Both the position numbers and the translations under genes were made by a program. This document shows, in pieces, positions 15,907 to 23,189 of a stretch of DNA of 33,096 nucleotides. The notes beneath the pieces were generated by a model. That model did not search any database. It was not told the DNA's origin and saw nothing but the letters and a program-made list of their open reading frames with translations. The stretch spans positions 1 through 33,096 of the forward strand of contig PHDP01000009.1 in assembly GCA_002842655.1 (NCBI GenBank). The letters run 5' to 3'. How positions within the stretch are numbered: position 1 is the stretch's first letter; each line of letters begins with the position of its first letter. Source of the stretch: Bacteroidetes bacterium HGW-Bacteroidetes-14 (lineage in GTDB: Bacteria > Bacteroidota > Bacteroidia > Bacteroidales > UBA932).

Positions 15907-15911
15907 TAACT

Positions 15912-17561
15912 GTGAGACGAAAATTCGTCATATATCAGCTTTTGCCGAGATTGTTTGGGAATACGAACGATGTTTGTATTCCCAATTCTTTTTCTGATGT
16001 AAATGGTTGCGGCAAACTTGCTGACATTACACCGGAAGTAATTAAGTCTATAAAAGAACTTGGGTGTACACATATTTGGTTTACAGGGATATTAGAACAT
16101 GCTACTCAAACCGATAATTCAGCTATCGGCATTCCTCCTGACCCTTCAACTGTTGTAAAAGGAAAGGCAGGTTCTCCATATGCAATTAAGGATTATTACG
16201 ATGTAGCCCCGGACCTGGCAATCAATCCTGAACGCAGAATGGATGAGTTCAGAGAGCTCGCAGAAAGATGTCACTCTCTTAATGTAAAAGTTTTAATAGA
16301 CTTTGTACCTAACCATCTGTCAAGAGTTTATAAATCTGATTCAAATCCAGGAAGAGTAGGAGAGTTTGGTGAAAATGACAATCAGTTCATTAGTTTTTCG
16401 CCTGAAAACAACTTTTACTACTTACCGGGAGAGACCTTTGTGTCTCCGGCAGAGACTAATGACATCTATTTTGAGATACCGGCAAAGGCAACAGGAAATG
16501 ATTGTTTCCGTCCAGATCCATCTGTAAATGACTGGTATGACACTGTTAAACTTAATTATGGTGTTAATTATCAAACAGGTGAGAGCTTTTTCTTACCTGT
16601 ACCTGATACATGGGTTAAAATGCTTGATATCTTGCAATTCTGGTGTGAGCGTGGTGTCGACGGATTCAGATGCGATATGGCAGAGATGGTACCTTCTGAG
16701 TTCTGGAGTTATTCAATTTCTGCAATTAAAGCGAAGTATCCAGAAACACAGTTTATTGCAGAAATATACAATCCTGGCAGTTACCGAAAATATCTCGGGT
16801 CTGGTTTTGATTATCTGTACGATAAGGTAGGACTTTATGATACACTTAAAGATATAGTAAAAGGTTTTAAACCTGCTTCTGAAATAACATCCTGCTGGCA
16901 AACTCTGTCTGATATACAGGATTCCATGCTTAATTTTCTGGAAAATCATGATGAACAGAGAGTTGCTTCTCCTTTTTTTGCGGGAAATCCCGCAAAAGCA
17001 TTACCGGCCCTTGCAGCAGGTCTGCTCTTAAACAGAGCGCCTTACATGATTTATTCAGGTCAGGAACTGGGCGAACCGGGAATGGACAGCGAAGGATTCA
17101 GCAATTGTGACGGAAGGACATCAATATTTGATTACTGGTCTGTTAAAACAATAAGAGATTGGTTTAAAGGAGAATATGACAAAAAAATAAGAGACAGCTA
17201 TTCATTTTTGCTAAATCTTTCTCTCTCTGAGAAAGCATTCAGCCTTGGAGATACTTTTGATCTCCAGTATGCAAATACGGATAATTCTTCTTATTGCAGC
17301 GGCAATCTTTACTCTTTTATAAGAAAGTTTCAGAATGAGCTGATAATTGTAGTTGTAAATTTTTCATCTTCTGATTTTTCTGTAAAACTGAACATCCCAA
17401 AACACCTCTTTGAGTATTTTGACATAAAGGACGGAAATGAATGTCAATCTTTTGATCTGCAAACCGGAAAAAGGGAAAATTTAGTGTTCTCAAGTGAAAT
17501 TCAGTTTGAAACTTTTGTTCCGGAATGTAGTTACTCTTTAGTTAAACTTTTACTTCAATAA
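15912..17561 (+). CDS. GH13-family alpha-amylase-like glycoside hydrolase, apparently cytoplasmic
   Basis: 549 aa, GTG start 5 nt after the PFK stop; YQLLPRLFGNTN, VLIDFVPNHLSR, GVDGFRCDMAEMVP, FIAEIYNP, FLENHDEQR. No signal peptide visible. Confidence 0.9.
   Translation: MRRKFVIYQLLPRLFGNTNDVCIPNSFSDVNGCGKLADITPEVIKSIKELGCTHIWFTGILEHATQTDNSAIGIPPDPSTVVKGKAGSPYAIKDYYDVAPDLAINPERRMDEFRELAERCHSLNVKVLIDFVPNHLSRVYKSDSNPGRVGEFGENDNQFISFSPENNFYYLPGETFVSPAETNDIYFEIPAKATGNDCFRPDPSVNDWYDTVKLNYGVNYQTGESFFLPVPDTWVKMLDILQFWCERGVDGFRCDMAEMVPSEFWSYSISAIKAKYPETQFIAEIYNPGSYRKYLGSGFDYLYDKVGLYDTLKDIVKGFKPASEITSCWQTLSDIQDSMLNFLENHDEQRVASPFFAGNPAKALPALAAGLLLNRAPYMIYSGQELGEPGMDSEGFSNCDGRTSIFDYWSVKTIRDWFKGEYDKKIRDSYSFLLNLSLSEKAFSLGDTFDLQYANTDNSSYCSGNLYSFIRKFQNELIIVVVNFSSSDFSVKLNIPKHLFEYFDIKDGNECQSFDLQTGKRENLVFSSEIQFETFVPECSYSLVKLLLQ
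15955..15995 (+). other. 14-bp near-perfect hairpin followed by a T-rich tract, inside the GH13 5' coding region
   Basis: TTGGGAATACGAAC (15955-15968), GAT loop, GTTTGTATTCCCAA (15972-15985); one G.U pair; followed by TTCTTTTTC. Confidence 0.7.
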
Positions 17562-19753: not shown

Positions 19754-19785
19754 TTTGATTAGGTTAGAAAAATTAGTTACATTCG
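19754..19785 (+). promoter_or_regulatory. Bacteroidetes-type promoter upstream of the YjbH-like cassette
   Basis: TTTG at 19754-19757, 20-nt spacer, TACATTCG at 19778-19785 (one mismatch from TAnnTTTG); ATG at 19816. Confidence 0.55.
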
Positions 19786-19815
19786 CAGAGTGAAAAACTT
19801 TGTAGCCTAAACTTA

Positions 19816-21039
19816 ATGAAATCAATGCTTTTAAACATATTTACCTCAATTCGCCCCAAAGTTGCAATACTTTTTTTCTTGCTTGCAGGCACTGGTATAT
19901 ATGCTCAGAACTCTGTTGAGAAGGCTTTATTTACTGAAGGATTCGAAAATGTAAGGCATATTTCAAAAGCAGGCAAAGAGATAATTTTCATTGAAAGTGA
20001 GTCTTTTACTTACGGAGACAGAGTGATTGAATCTGTCAAAGGAGCAATAGAATCACTATACCCTGAGTTTAAATCGAAAAATGTAGAAGTTTTTCTCATG
20101 GATGATAGAATACCAAAGTTCAGGATGTACTCAACACTTGCAGGGGATGCCTCAGGTGCGAAATGGTATTCAGACTTTAATGTAAGCGAAGGTATTGCAG
20201 AACTTAATAAACTTGATGGTAAAAAATTCGAGAACTCTTCATTCGGAAAGGTAGATTTGAAGTTTTATCCTATTTTCCGTTTTAAAAACGCAAGGCTTGA
20301 TGTAATGTATTTACTTCAGCTGAATATTAACCCAACACTTGAAATATCATTATGGAGAGGTGCCACTGCAACAGCACAGGTAATTTTTCCACTTGTAAAT
20401 GACTACTCAACAGAAGAGGGCAGAATAAGACCTGGTTTTCTTACTTTATCCCAGCAATTCAGACTTCCATTCAATATCCATGCTATGGCCACTGTTGGAA
20501 ATTTCAACATGTTCAGAGCAGGAGCAGATTTAAAACTTTATAAACCGGTGGGATCAAGAATTGGTGTTTATGCGCAAATGAGTTATACCGCATATTCAAT
20601 TCCTTTTTTCAGTGACTGGTATTACACAAGCCCGGATAAATTTACCTGGAAAGTTGGTGCCAATTATATTGTAAAGCCCTGGAATCTTATGTTTAACATG
20701 AATCTGGCCAAGTATCTTGGAAATGATTTGTCTGTAAGGGGAGAGGTTACCAGATATTTCCGCAATGCAGCTGTTGGATTCTATGTTCAGACAATGGACA
20801 TTCCGGATTTTCCTGTCAACGGCGGGTTTTATTTTGCAATTTCATTACCACCATATAAACATAAACGAAACAAATTTGTTAGAGTTTCAGCGGGAAACTA
20901 TTTTCCGCTTGAGTATATCGCCAGACCATATACAGAACATGGCAGATATTTTACGACATCACCCGACGAGAATTCGTCGTACAACTTTTTTACCAAAATG
21001 CGCTTAAATCAAATAATCTTAAATTCAACCAATAATTAA
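19816..21039 (+). CDS. Exported beta-barrel protein resembling the C-terminal part of YjbH/GfcD
   Basis: 407 aa; signal peptide ending GIYAQ; SVRGEVTRYFRNAAVGFYVQTMDIPDFPVNGGFYFAISLPPYKHK has the pattern of the YjbH C-terminal region (repeated barrel strands then F-x-x-G-x-Y-x-x-IP/LP). Confidence 0.6.
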   Translation: MKSMLLNIFTSIRPKVAILFFLLAGTGIYAQNSVEKALFTEGFENVRHISKAGKEIIFIESESFTYGDRVIESVKGAIESLYPEFKSKNVEVFLMDDRIPKFRMYSTLAGDASGAKWYSDFNVSEGIAELNKLDGKKFENSSFGKVDLKFYPIFRFKNARLDVMYLLQLNINPTLEISLWRGATATAQVIFPLVNDYSTEEGRIRPGFLTLSQQFRLPFNIHAMATVGNFNMFRAGADLKLYKPVGSRIGVYAQMSYTAYSIPFFSDWYYTSPDKFTWKVGANYIVKPWNLMFNMNLAKYLGNDLSVRGEVTRYFRNAAVGFYVQTMDIPDFPVNGGFYFAISLPPYKHKRNKFVRVSAGNYFPLEYIARPYTEHGRYFTTSPDENSSYNFFTKMRLNQIILNSTNN

Positions 21040-21050
21040 CCAAAAATTCT

Positions 21051-22385
21051 ATGAAAGCAAGCAAAATCTTTTCAAGACTTATGGGAGCGGCCACAGCCAC
21101 TCTTCTGGTTGCTGCACTCGTAGGTGCAGCCTCATGTACAAAAGTACCTGAGCCAACTCCTACACCGGAGCCTCAGCCAGCTACCTACACAATTAAGGGA
21201 CAGGTGTTCAATAACACTACCAAGGCATATCTGCCTGGCGTTACCGTTACTATGGGTACCAAAACAGCAACTACTGACAGTTTTGGTAAGTTTGAATTTG
21301 CTAACCTTACAACTGCAGGCAAATACAACATCGTTCTGACCAAGGCCGATTTCTATTCTGCTCAGTACTCTCTCGAGTTCCCTACAGCAGGCCTTAACCA
21401 CAATCTGGTATACAGCATCACAATGACTATGGTTCCTTATGTACCTGGAATCACTCCGCTTGATCCTCTTGCCGGAGGTACAATTGCAATTGAAGGCGGA
21501 ACTAATGATGCAGCCCTTACAATTCCAGCATCTACAACTGTAAAAGATGCTAACGGAGCTACAATCACAGGCCCTATCAATATTACCGCAGTTGAAGTAA
21601 ATGACATCGTTATTGCAGGTGCAGTTAACAATCCTGGTATCATGACTCTTCGTTTCGAGCCTACAGGACTTGTATTCAGCAAACCTCTTACTGTTGCAGT
21701 TGACAACCCTCTTACTGCTTACAAATACGCAGAACTTCAGCTTGAATATTTCAACAATACACTAAGTAAATGGGAAATCCAGCCTACTCAGGTAACATAT
21801 GCACCTGCTACTAATGATTACGTTACCTCAATTACTCACTTCTCGCTTTACAAAGTATCTTTTAAAGCTCCTGTTGTGGACGAGCCTTCAACTACAGAGA
21901 AAATTAAAGTTCTCGACAGCCTTATGATTAACAGAGGTCTGACTCCTTACAATGTTACAAGCATCAGATATGTTGAGAAGCAAGGTTATAAATTTACAGA
22001 ACCTCTTGCAACAACACTTACCAATGCAGGTATCACAGGTGCAGACCAGACTGAATTGATTTCATCTATTACTGCACTTGTTACAAACCACTTCAATGGT
22101 ATTGCTCCTCTTGCTGCTTTTGGAACTCCAACCTATACAAAAGCTGTTACAAGAACAATTCAGCCAATGTACTATCAGGTTACAACAGCTAATCAGACTT
22201 TCACCAAGAAGAAGTTTACCATTAAAGTATCCAACACTGCTGGTACAGTTACAAAAACTCTTGAAATCAGAACTATCATGGCCGGCACTGTTGACCTGGT
22301 ATTCCAGGATCTGATTTATGACGACCACGCACACGCACACCTCCATGGTCATGACCACGGTCTTGGCGGCGGTGGAACAATCTAA
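21051..22385 (+). CDS. Surface/periplasmic lipoprotein with carboxypeptidase-regulatory-like domain and His-rich C-terminus
   Basis: 444 aa; lipobox VGAASC, PEPTPTPEPQP linker, TIKGQVFNNTTKAYLPGVTVTMGTKTATTDSFGKFEFANL (CarboxypepD_reg-like), tail DDHAHAHLHGHDHGLGGGGTI. Confidence 0.75.
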   Translation: MKASKIFSRLMGAATATLLVAALVGAASCTKVPEPTPTPEPQPATYTIKGQVFNNTTKAYLPGVTVTMGTKTATTDSFGKFEFANLTTAGKYNIVLTKADFYSAQYSLEFPTAGLNHNLVYSITMTMVPYVPGITPLDPLAGGTIAIEGGTNDAALTIPASTTVKDANGATITGPINITAVEVNDIVIAGAVNNPGIMTLRFEPTGLVFSKPLTVAVDNPLTAYKYAELQLEYFNNTLSKWEIQPTQVTYAPATNDYVTSITHFSLYKVSFKAPVVDEPSTTEKIKVLDSLMINRGLTPYNVTSIRYVEKQGYKFTEPLATTLTNAGITGADQTELISSITALVTNHFNGIAPLAAFGTPTYTKAVTRTIQPMYYQVTTANQTFTKKKFTIKVSNTAGTVTKTLEIRTIMAGTVDLVFQDLIYDDHAHAHLHGHDHGLGGGGTI

Positions 22386-22390
22386 TCAAT

Positions 22391-22411
22391 TTCAGAAAAA
22401 CAATTTCTGAA
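22391..22411 (+). other. Perfect 8-bp hairpin reaching the start codon of the next gene
   Basis: TTCAGAAA-AACAA-TTTCTGAA; the last A of the stem is the A of the ATG at 22411; no T tract follows. Confidence 0.6.
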
Positions 22412-23136
22412 TGAGATTTAAAGCACCTATCAGGATGATGTTGGGAGCAGCGATGCTGCTCCTGACATCTTCTTTTTTAAATGCCCAGAGCACTCTTGGT
22501 GTTACCGGACTCTTAAACAGCCCCAATGCCGAGATGTCAGAAGACAAAACCGTAAAGATTGGAGGTAACTTCCTTCCAAAACAGTTTACTCCTGATACCT
22601 GGGATTACCATACATTTAATTTCTTTGTCAATATCACTTTTGTCCCGTTTGCAGAAATTGCAATGACAAACACTGCCTTTGATCTTTGGGATCAGGGTAG
22701 GTTCAGTAATGTCGACAGATCAATTTCACTTCGTGTAAGACCTCTTAAGGAGGGTAAATACTGGCCGGCTGTGGTTATTGGATCTAATGATGTAATATCC
22801 ACTTCATCTTTGCTTGGATATGCATCCGGAAATAAGTACTTTGGTACGACCTATCTTGCAATGACAAAACATTTTGACCTTGGCGGAAATGAACTTGGAA
22901 TTCATGCGGCCTACAATATTCCTGTCAGCGTTCATGTTCAGCAGAAATTTCCTGTTTCAGGAGGTATCAGTTTTTCACCAAAATTTTACAAAGAGCTGAA
23001 CATTATTGCGGAATACGATACTAAACACTTTAACCTTGGTGCAAATGTTGTTTTATTTAAGTATCTGTATCTGCAGCTGCTTTTAAACCAGCTCAAGTAT
23101 CCTGTAATTGGTATTCATGCACAGTTTACTATTTAG
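22411..23136 (+). CDS. Exported beta-barrel protein resembling the N-terminal part of YjbH
   Basis: 241 aa; signal peptide ending FLNAQ; TLGVTGLLNSPNAEMSEDKTVKIGGNFLP ... FFVNITFVPFAEIAMTNT ... RSISLRVRPLKEGKYWPAVVIGSNDV follows the YjbH N-terminal pattern (G-L-x-x-x-P-x-A-x-M-x-x-D). Confidence 0.65.
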   Translation: MRFKAPIRMMLGAAMLLLTSSFLNAQSTLGVTGLLNSPNAEMSEDKTVKIGGNFLPKQFTPDTWDYHTFNFFVNITFVPFAEIAMTNTAFDLWDQGRFSNVDRSISLRVRPLKEGKYWPAVVIGSNDVISTSSLLGYASGNKYFGTTYLAMTKHFDLGGNELGIHAAYNIPVSVHVQQKFPVSGGISFSPKFYKELNIIAEYDTKHFNLGANVVLFKYLYLQLLLNQLKYPVIGIHAQFTI

Positions 23137-23161
23137 ATAAGGTTAAATTGTATTAAATTGC

Positions 23162-23189
23162 AGCTTGTAATCATTTACAAGCTTTTTTT
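23162..23189 (+). terminator. Intrinsic terminator ending the YjbH-like cassette
   Basis: AGCTTGTAA-TCAT-TTACAAGCT (9-bp perfect stem) followed by a T run (23183-23189). Confidence 0.88.

Follow-up and report, generated by a model that had tools for sequence, protein, structure and literature searches.

Two halves of a GfcD/YjbH-type outer-membrane protein are encoded by separate genes around a tailed lipoprotein in Bacteroidota

We analyzed a 33,096-nucleotide (nt) stretch of the genome of Bacteroidetes bacterium HGW-Bacteroidetes-14 (assembly GCA_002842655.1, contig PHDP01000009.1, positions 1 to 33,096; hereafter the window), which carries a cassette of three plus-strand genes. Gene 3 of this cassette is the N-terminal barrel of GfcD/YjbH, gene 1 is by homology the rest of that protein, and gene 2, located between them, codes for a lipoprotein that ends in a conserved His/Gly motif, the H-x-GG tail. 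We modestly favor the explanation that genes 1 and 3 supply the two subunits of a GfcD-type portal in the outer membrane, which would serve a surface polymer carrying a lipid anchor, and that the lipoprotein docks there through its tail. The main features of the cassette are as follows.

19816-21039, plus strand: gene 1, 407 amino acids (aa), exported, C-terminal half
21051-22385, plus strand: gene 2, 444 aa, lipoprotein
22329-22382, plus strand: codons of the conserved His/Gly tail of gene 2 (HAHAHLHGHDHGLGGGGTI region)
22411-23136, plus strand: gene 3, 241 aa, exported, N-terminal half

These coordinates agree with the original prediction, which was made from the sequence of the window and had reported gaps of 11 nt between genes 1 and 2 and 25 nt between genes 2 and 3. 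The export signals that it had assigned to all three products appear plausible by eye, with a lipobox (LVGAASC) in gene 2 and, for genes 1 and 3, signals that have AQ at their end.

The E. coli GfcD/YjbH protein (Pfam YjbH, PF06082) belongs to the group 4 capsule and yjb operons and is predicted to form a double barrel in the outer membrane; among multi-barrel outer-membrane proteins, GfcD/YjbH have been described as the largest group (PMC11494523). Gene 3 matches PF06082 above the cut-off (positions 2-119, E=9.8e-11). Using profiles built from Bacteroidota homologues only, with E. coli excluded, we found that the gene 3 profile matches E. coli GfcD at 6-279 (iE 6e-26) and YjbH at 2-277 (iE ~1e-24), and hhalign gave 97.7% against GfcD/YjbH. 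The AlphaFold model of gene 3 has 12 strands (pLDDT 73), and its 18 best matches in the PDB are all structures of FapF, the Pseudomonas functional-amyloid transporter (5o65, 5o67 and 5o68), at an identity of ~10% and moderate TM-scores of 0.42-0.52. The N-terminal half of GfcD has likewise been reported to match FapF (PMC9603273). Gene 3 is thus the N-terminal 12-strand barrel of GfcD/YjbH (approximately GfcD 20-280), and it has a FapF-like fold.

The fold matches also raise the possibility that the N-barrel, like FapF, is a secretion channel for a protein or amyloid and that the cassette serves to build a matrix or fibre made of protein, an idea previously put forward for GfcD (PMC9603273). 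We consider this very improbable: the resemblance to FapF is one of fold at low identity, with TM-scores of at most 0.52 and no significant sequence match; no fap gene was recognised among the Pfam-scanned neighbours; the window annotation shows no recognisable curli-type gene, FapD-type peptidase or protein with amyloid-like repeats; and sugar transferases are frequent at loci that carry gene 3 alone. In sequence searches of the PDB, neither gene 3 nor gene 1 matched a solved structure, and a TnpX match (E=0.012) was attributed to chance. Some gene 3 homologues carry long C-terminal extensions (L144 6686-8146 and 14607-16208, L145 and L151), of which the one in L144 6686-8146 reads like an OmpA-type domain.

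The match of gene 1 to PF06082 is located at positions 479-599 and falls below the cut-off (E=0.024); four gene 1 homologues (L026, L087, L085 and L198) score above it. The profile of gene 1 homologues, built in the same way, matches GfcD at 308-650 (iE 5e-13) and YjbH at 314-653 (iE ~8e-16). The hhalign score against GfcD/YjbH is 98.2%, compared with 0.6% in a negative control that aligned gene 1 with gene 3, and the profile and hhalign matches are co-linear over ~300 residues. The AlphaFold model of gene 1 contains an alpha/beta domain (44-119) and a predicted barrel (~145-368), for which Foldseek recovered generic porins only. Because its pLDDT is 65, with the strands near the expected gate poorly defined, this model is too weak to judge the gate. 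On these sequence matches, gene 1 is identified as the middle periplasmic alpha/beta domain plus the C-terminal barrel of GfcD/YjbH. The original prediction had likened gene 1 to the C-terminal half and gene 3 to the N-terminal half and had asked for a profile search of both barrels, and the Pfam, profile and hhalign results bear the likeness out. That genes 1 and 3 could instead be ordinary, unrelated outer-membrane barrels merely resembling YjbH halves is extremely improbable. The sub-threshold Pfam score of gene 1 in the window would fit such a reading, but it is already contradicted by the profile results, namely the homologues that pass the cut-off and the co-linear matches set against a negative control of 0.6%. 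Gene 1 differs from E. coli GfcD in an extra conserved C-terminal extension, which does not align with the E. coli protein, and in having a tailed lipoprotein partner. In three loci (L028, L030 and L031), gene 1 homologues lack the periplasmic alpha/beta domain and are located beside tailed lipoproteins of 145-177 aa.

Both barrels and the middle domain are therefore homologous between the cassette and GfcD/YjbH, with the N-barrel 12-stranded and FapF-like, whereas GfcD/YjbH is one polypeptide and the cassette has two genes, in the order C-half, lipoprotein, N-half. The central non-barrel region of GfcD spans ~273-427 (PMC8592465), which places the gene break between the N-barrel and the middle domain. 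Among 297 Bacteroidota genomes, PF06082 matches lie almost entirely in half-size open reading frames (ORFs), with N-parts mostly of 230-320 aa and C-parts of ~380-450 aa. An ORF with both halves was found in E. coli alone and in none of the Bacteroidota loci fetched. Homologues of genes 1 and 3 neighbour each other in many families, in varying orders: 1-2-3 in the window's genus and in L087, L089, L138, L143 and L144; 3-1-2 in B. fragilis (L026 8001-11258); and elsewhere 3-1, 1-3, convergent pairs, or 1-2 without gene 3 in the fetched stretch. Both halves are patchily distributed, gene 3 being found in 21 of 393 genomes of the order and gene 1 in 20 of 396 of the phylum. Within the window's genus, gene 3 is present in 17 of 25 genomes and always adjoins gene 2. 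At 13 of these loci the flank is long enough to show gene 1, which adjoins the other two in every case; in the remaining four the contig ends. The order C-half, lipoprotein, N-half is thus fixed in 13/13. The order of the three genes, proposed earlier as a neighbourhood check, is thus kept in the genus and recurs in several other families. The original prediction further proposed that a single-chain protein had been split into two permuted genes around a lipoprotein. The halves and their order hold, and the direction may run either way: the two genes may be a split of a single chain, or the single chain may be a fusion of two.

Gene 2 encodes a lipoprotein with a CarboxypepD_reg domain and a C-terminal H-x-GG tail (HGHDHGLGGGGTI). 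The tail consists of a His and, no more than a few residues after it, Gly-Gly or Gly-Cys, more rarely just one Gly, as in HDHGLGGGGTI, CHEGGGGE, PHDQGG, QHSGGKV, CHQGC and CHNQG. What had been called a "His-tailed" lipoprotein does have its His at a conserved C-terminus, but is better described by this motif. The tail was first noticed in gene 2 homologues and then on lipoproteins adjacent to gene 1 that cannot be aligned with gene 2, and it also held in gene 1 loci fetched later. Outside the genus, a tailed lipoprotein is found in the neighbourhood of a gene 1 homologue in 33 of 37 loci, several of them counted by eye where a strict rule failed (e.g., L028, with the motif ~18 residues from the end). 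The four loci without one are L202 and three members (L092, L097 and L197) of a divergent group whose matches to gene 1 are weak. Under the strict automatic rule, the tail occurs on 39 of 47 lipobox ORFs at most two genes from gene 1 and on 10 of 97 others; several of those 10 are cassette lipoproteins on truncated contigs, and the counts, which include 13 loci of the genus, are not independent. A regular expression for the tail matches 33 of 34 tail windows and 19 of 679 internal windows of the lipoproteins, figures that are descriptive rather than a blind test since the expression was chosen after the motif had been seen.

With the tail removed, the lipoprotein bodies fall into five BLAST clusters, one of them with 27 members. 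An artefact of one lipoprotein family was ruled out, since unrelated bodies bear the tail (L028/L030/L031, L083/L095, L093 and L136). No tailed lipoprotein was found at gene 3 loci without gene 1. The tailed lipoprotein is located beside gene 1 and not at gene-3-only loci, which by this genomic association makes it the partner of the C-barrel. No C-terminal sorting model in NCBIfam matches the tail, and weak TIGR04134 matches correspond to the N-terminal CarboxypepD region. Two E. coli proteins, YjbE (L064 1907-2149) and GfcA (L065 10440-10745), have Gly-rich, Thr-rich tails (GGGDGSNTGTTT and SGDGGSHNTSTTT) and are a possible analogue of the H-x-GG tail; no link could be demonstrated. In some lineages, the tailed lipoprotein is followed by a small protein with a barrel-like end, GPKIGxKLSYLF (L136 1363-2010, L138 1262-2011, L142 470-1192, L196 4110-5039, L198 8506-9252 and L204 4240-4914), and none of the three such proteins scanned has a Pfam match.

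A tail that is constant on at least five sequence clusters of bodies (33/34 tails and 19/679 internal windows) could also mark a cargo, and of the rival explanations the most interesting is that the lipoprotein itself is what is exported. Gene 1, with or without gene 3, would then export the lipoprotein, the tail, as leading or recognition signal, entering the C-barrel first and the N-terminal lipid leaving last via the lateral gate, which would place the lipoprotein on the cell surface. This would accord with the model of GfcD, in which the polymer goes first and any lipid anchor is able to leave laterally (PMC11494523), and with several loci where gene 1 and a tailed lipoprotein occur with neither gene 3 nor polysaccharide genes nearby (L085, L088, L101, L193-L195 and L199-L201). 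We nevertheless regard export of the lipoprotein as rather unlikely, since a docking tail would be equally conserved, polysaccharide genes adjoin the cassette in several lineages, the folded beta-sandwich bodies would need unfolding with no chaperone or motor gene linked, and an N-terminal lipoprotein export signal is already reported in Bacteroidota (PMC5080379). In its specific form, the idea makes the H-x-GG tail an address label by which lipoprotein cargo is committed to a GfcD-type lateral-gate barrel and threaded tail first and lipid last; this is unlikely as well. If true, it would amount to a new surface route for Bacteroidota lipoproteins with interchangeable cargo bodies.

The composition of the tail suggests another role, that of a metal or redox sensor or plug gating the C-barrel, in which the His and the often present Cys pair would bind metal or form a disulfide. 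All tails contain His, often after a Cys (CHEGGGG, CHNQG and CHQGC), and extra Cys residues occur among the last 30 residues. Such a sensor is quite improbable, as tails in the window's genus, in B. fragilis and in others are without Cys, no metal gene is linked, and the motif is too short for a metal site to be called. CxxCH haem binding was dropped as a candidate because the spacing is not kept and Cys is absent from many tails.

In the favored portal, gene 3 would supply the 12-strand N-barrel of the double barrel, and gene 1 would supply the periplasmic domain and a C-barrel with a putative lateral gate. GfcD has a predicted 13-strand C-barrel with a lateral aperture, through whose opening lipid-anchored polymers are proposed to exit (PMC11494523). 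The gene 2 lipoprotein would dock to gene 1 via the H-x-GG tail and perhaps substitute for GfcB/GfcC (YjbF/YjbG), which bind GfcD (PMC8592465); like GfcB, it is a lipoprotein encoded beside the barrel, but with different domains. The three products would form a physical complex whose task is to move or anchor a surface polymer linked to a lipid, presumably capsule or exopolysaccharide. Polysaccharide is the likeliest cargo because of the homology and the gene neighbourhood: a PF02397 sugar transferase is located beside the cassette in L032, L083 and L091, a WecG-type glycosyltransferase adjoins all three genes in B. fragilis, Wza/Wzc homologues adjoin the pair in L032 and L095, and gene-3-only loci often carry sugar transferases. 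The window's genus does have polysaccharide genes, OPX in 16 and a sugar transferase in 20 of the 25 genomes, unlinked to the cassette (in one genome, G011, OPX is ~460 kb away). The statement in the original prediction that no polysaccharide genes are adjacent therefore stands for this genus and fails in several other lineages. Its view that the cassette is not a standard gfc/yjb operon is upheld: GfcB and GfcC (PF11102 and PF06251) are absent from 25/25 genus genomes, with a positive E. coli control, and OPX/Wzc-type genes are unlinked. Unlike in the case of GfcD, no GfcA, GfcB, GfcC, GfcE, Etp or Etk gene adjoins the cassette.

Several observations weigh against the portal. In the window's genus the cassette has no linked polysaccharide gene, and no Wza/Wzc-type gene was recognised in the window. 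Some genus genomes have OPX without gene 3 (G010, G014 and G023), and the draft genome to which the window belongs (82% complete) yielded neither OPX nor PF02397. Gene 3 homologues are also found without gene 1 in the neighbourhood, so the pair does not operate from a shared locus in every case. Confidence in the gene 1 model is low and its fold matches are generic, and the function of GfcD is itself a computational proposal (PMC11494523).

The split and the tailed lipoprotein are described in no paper that we found in the open-licence literature. Adjacent "YjbH domain-containing" genes, B. thetaiotaomicron BT0292/BT0293, are listed in an expression table (PMC10434189). Compared by annotation only, these neighbours probably represent the same split, but halves, a lipoprotein partner and a tail are not described there. 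The function of GfcD/YjbH has so far been based on simulation and indirect genetics. Since a natural version comes in two pieces, each barrel can be deleted, expressed and solved separately, and since B. fragilis has all three genes beside a WecG-type gene, genetics is possible in a cultured Bacteroides. The tailed lipoprotein accompanies the C-half across the whole bacterial phylum, which, together with the separately made halves, suggests a modular machine for export or surface display; its specificity for that half points to a partner that matters for that barrel, and the short tail is directly testable.

Three further elements of the cassette are located on the same strand.

19754-19785, plus strand: Bacteroidota-type promoter motif TTTG-N20-TACATTCG, exact match
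22437-22469, plus strand: RNA hairpin of 15 pairs, then a U-rich tract TTCTTTTTT, inside the signal-peptide codons of gene 3
23162-23183, plus strand: intrinsic terminator, 9-pair stem, then T7

The promoter motif and the 9-bp terminator after gene 3 had both been predicted and are found at these positions. About 0.17 one-mismatch matches to the promoter motif are expected by chance in the window. A similar motif, TTG-N(18-23)-TAnnTTnG, precedes gene 1 at each of the 12 loci of the genus that were tested, and the motif is therefore probably the real promoter of the cassette. The hairpin within gene 3, missed in the original prediction, is a stronger terminator-like hairpin than the one at 23162-23183. 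Across 17 genomes of the genus, both sides have changed in 13 of 20 pairs, and 86% of cells pair. The covariation (0.454) compares with 0.07-0.19 in slid controls and was reached by none of 500 shuffles. RNAalifold recovers the same helix unprompted, and single-sequence z-scores range from -3.7 to -7.6 (eight tested). The 5' ends of genes 1 and 2 show no comparable fold, and of 12 other lineages tested, 11 have none at the start of gene 3 either, the exception with a strong fold being L094; no Rfam family matches the hairpin. It is probably an attenuator that would set gene 3 below genes 1 and 2.

The cassette is flanked by a divergent S24/UmuD-like gene upstream and an alpha/beta hydrolase gene downstream, both conserved in the genus. 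In one genus genome (G011, L073 6852-10838), the cassette is partially duplicated in tandem, 90% identical over ~1.6 kb, and the duplication comprises a C-terminal gene 1 fragment, a second gene 2 and an N-terminal gene 3 fragment. Elsewhere in the window, the ORF at 15912 folds unusually well over its first 90 nt (~15907-16000; z -5.5), which could possibly be explained by the terminator of the preceding gene, with the GTG start misassigned.

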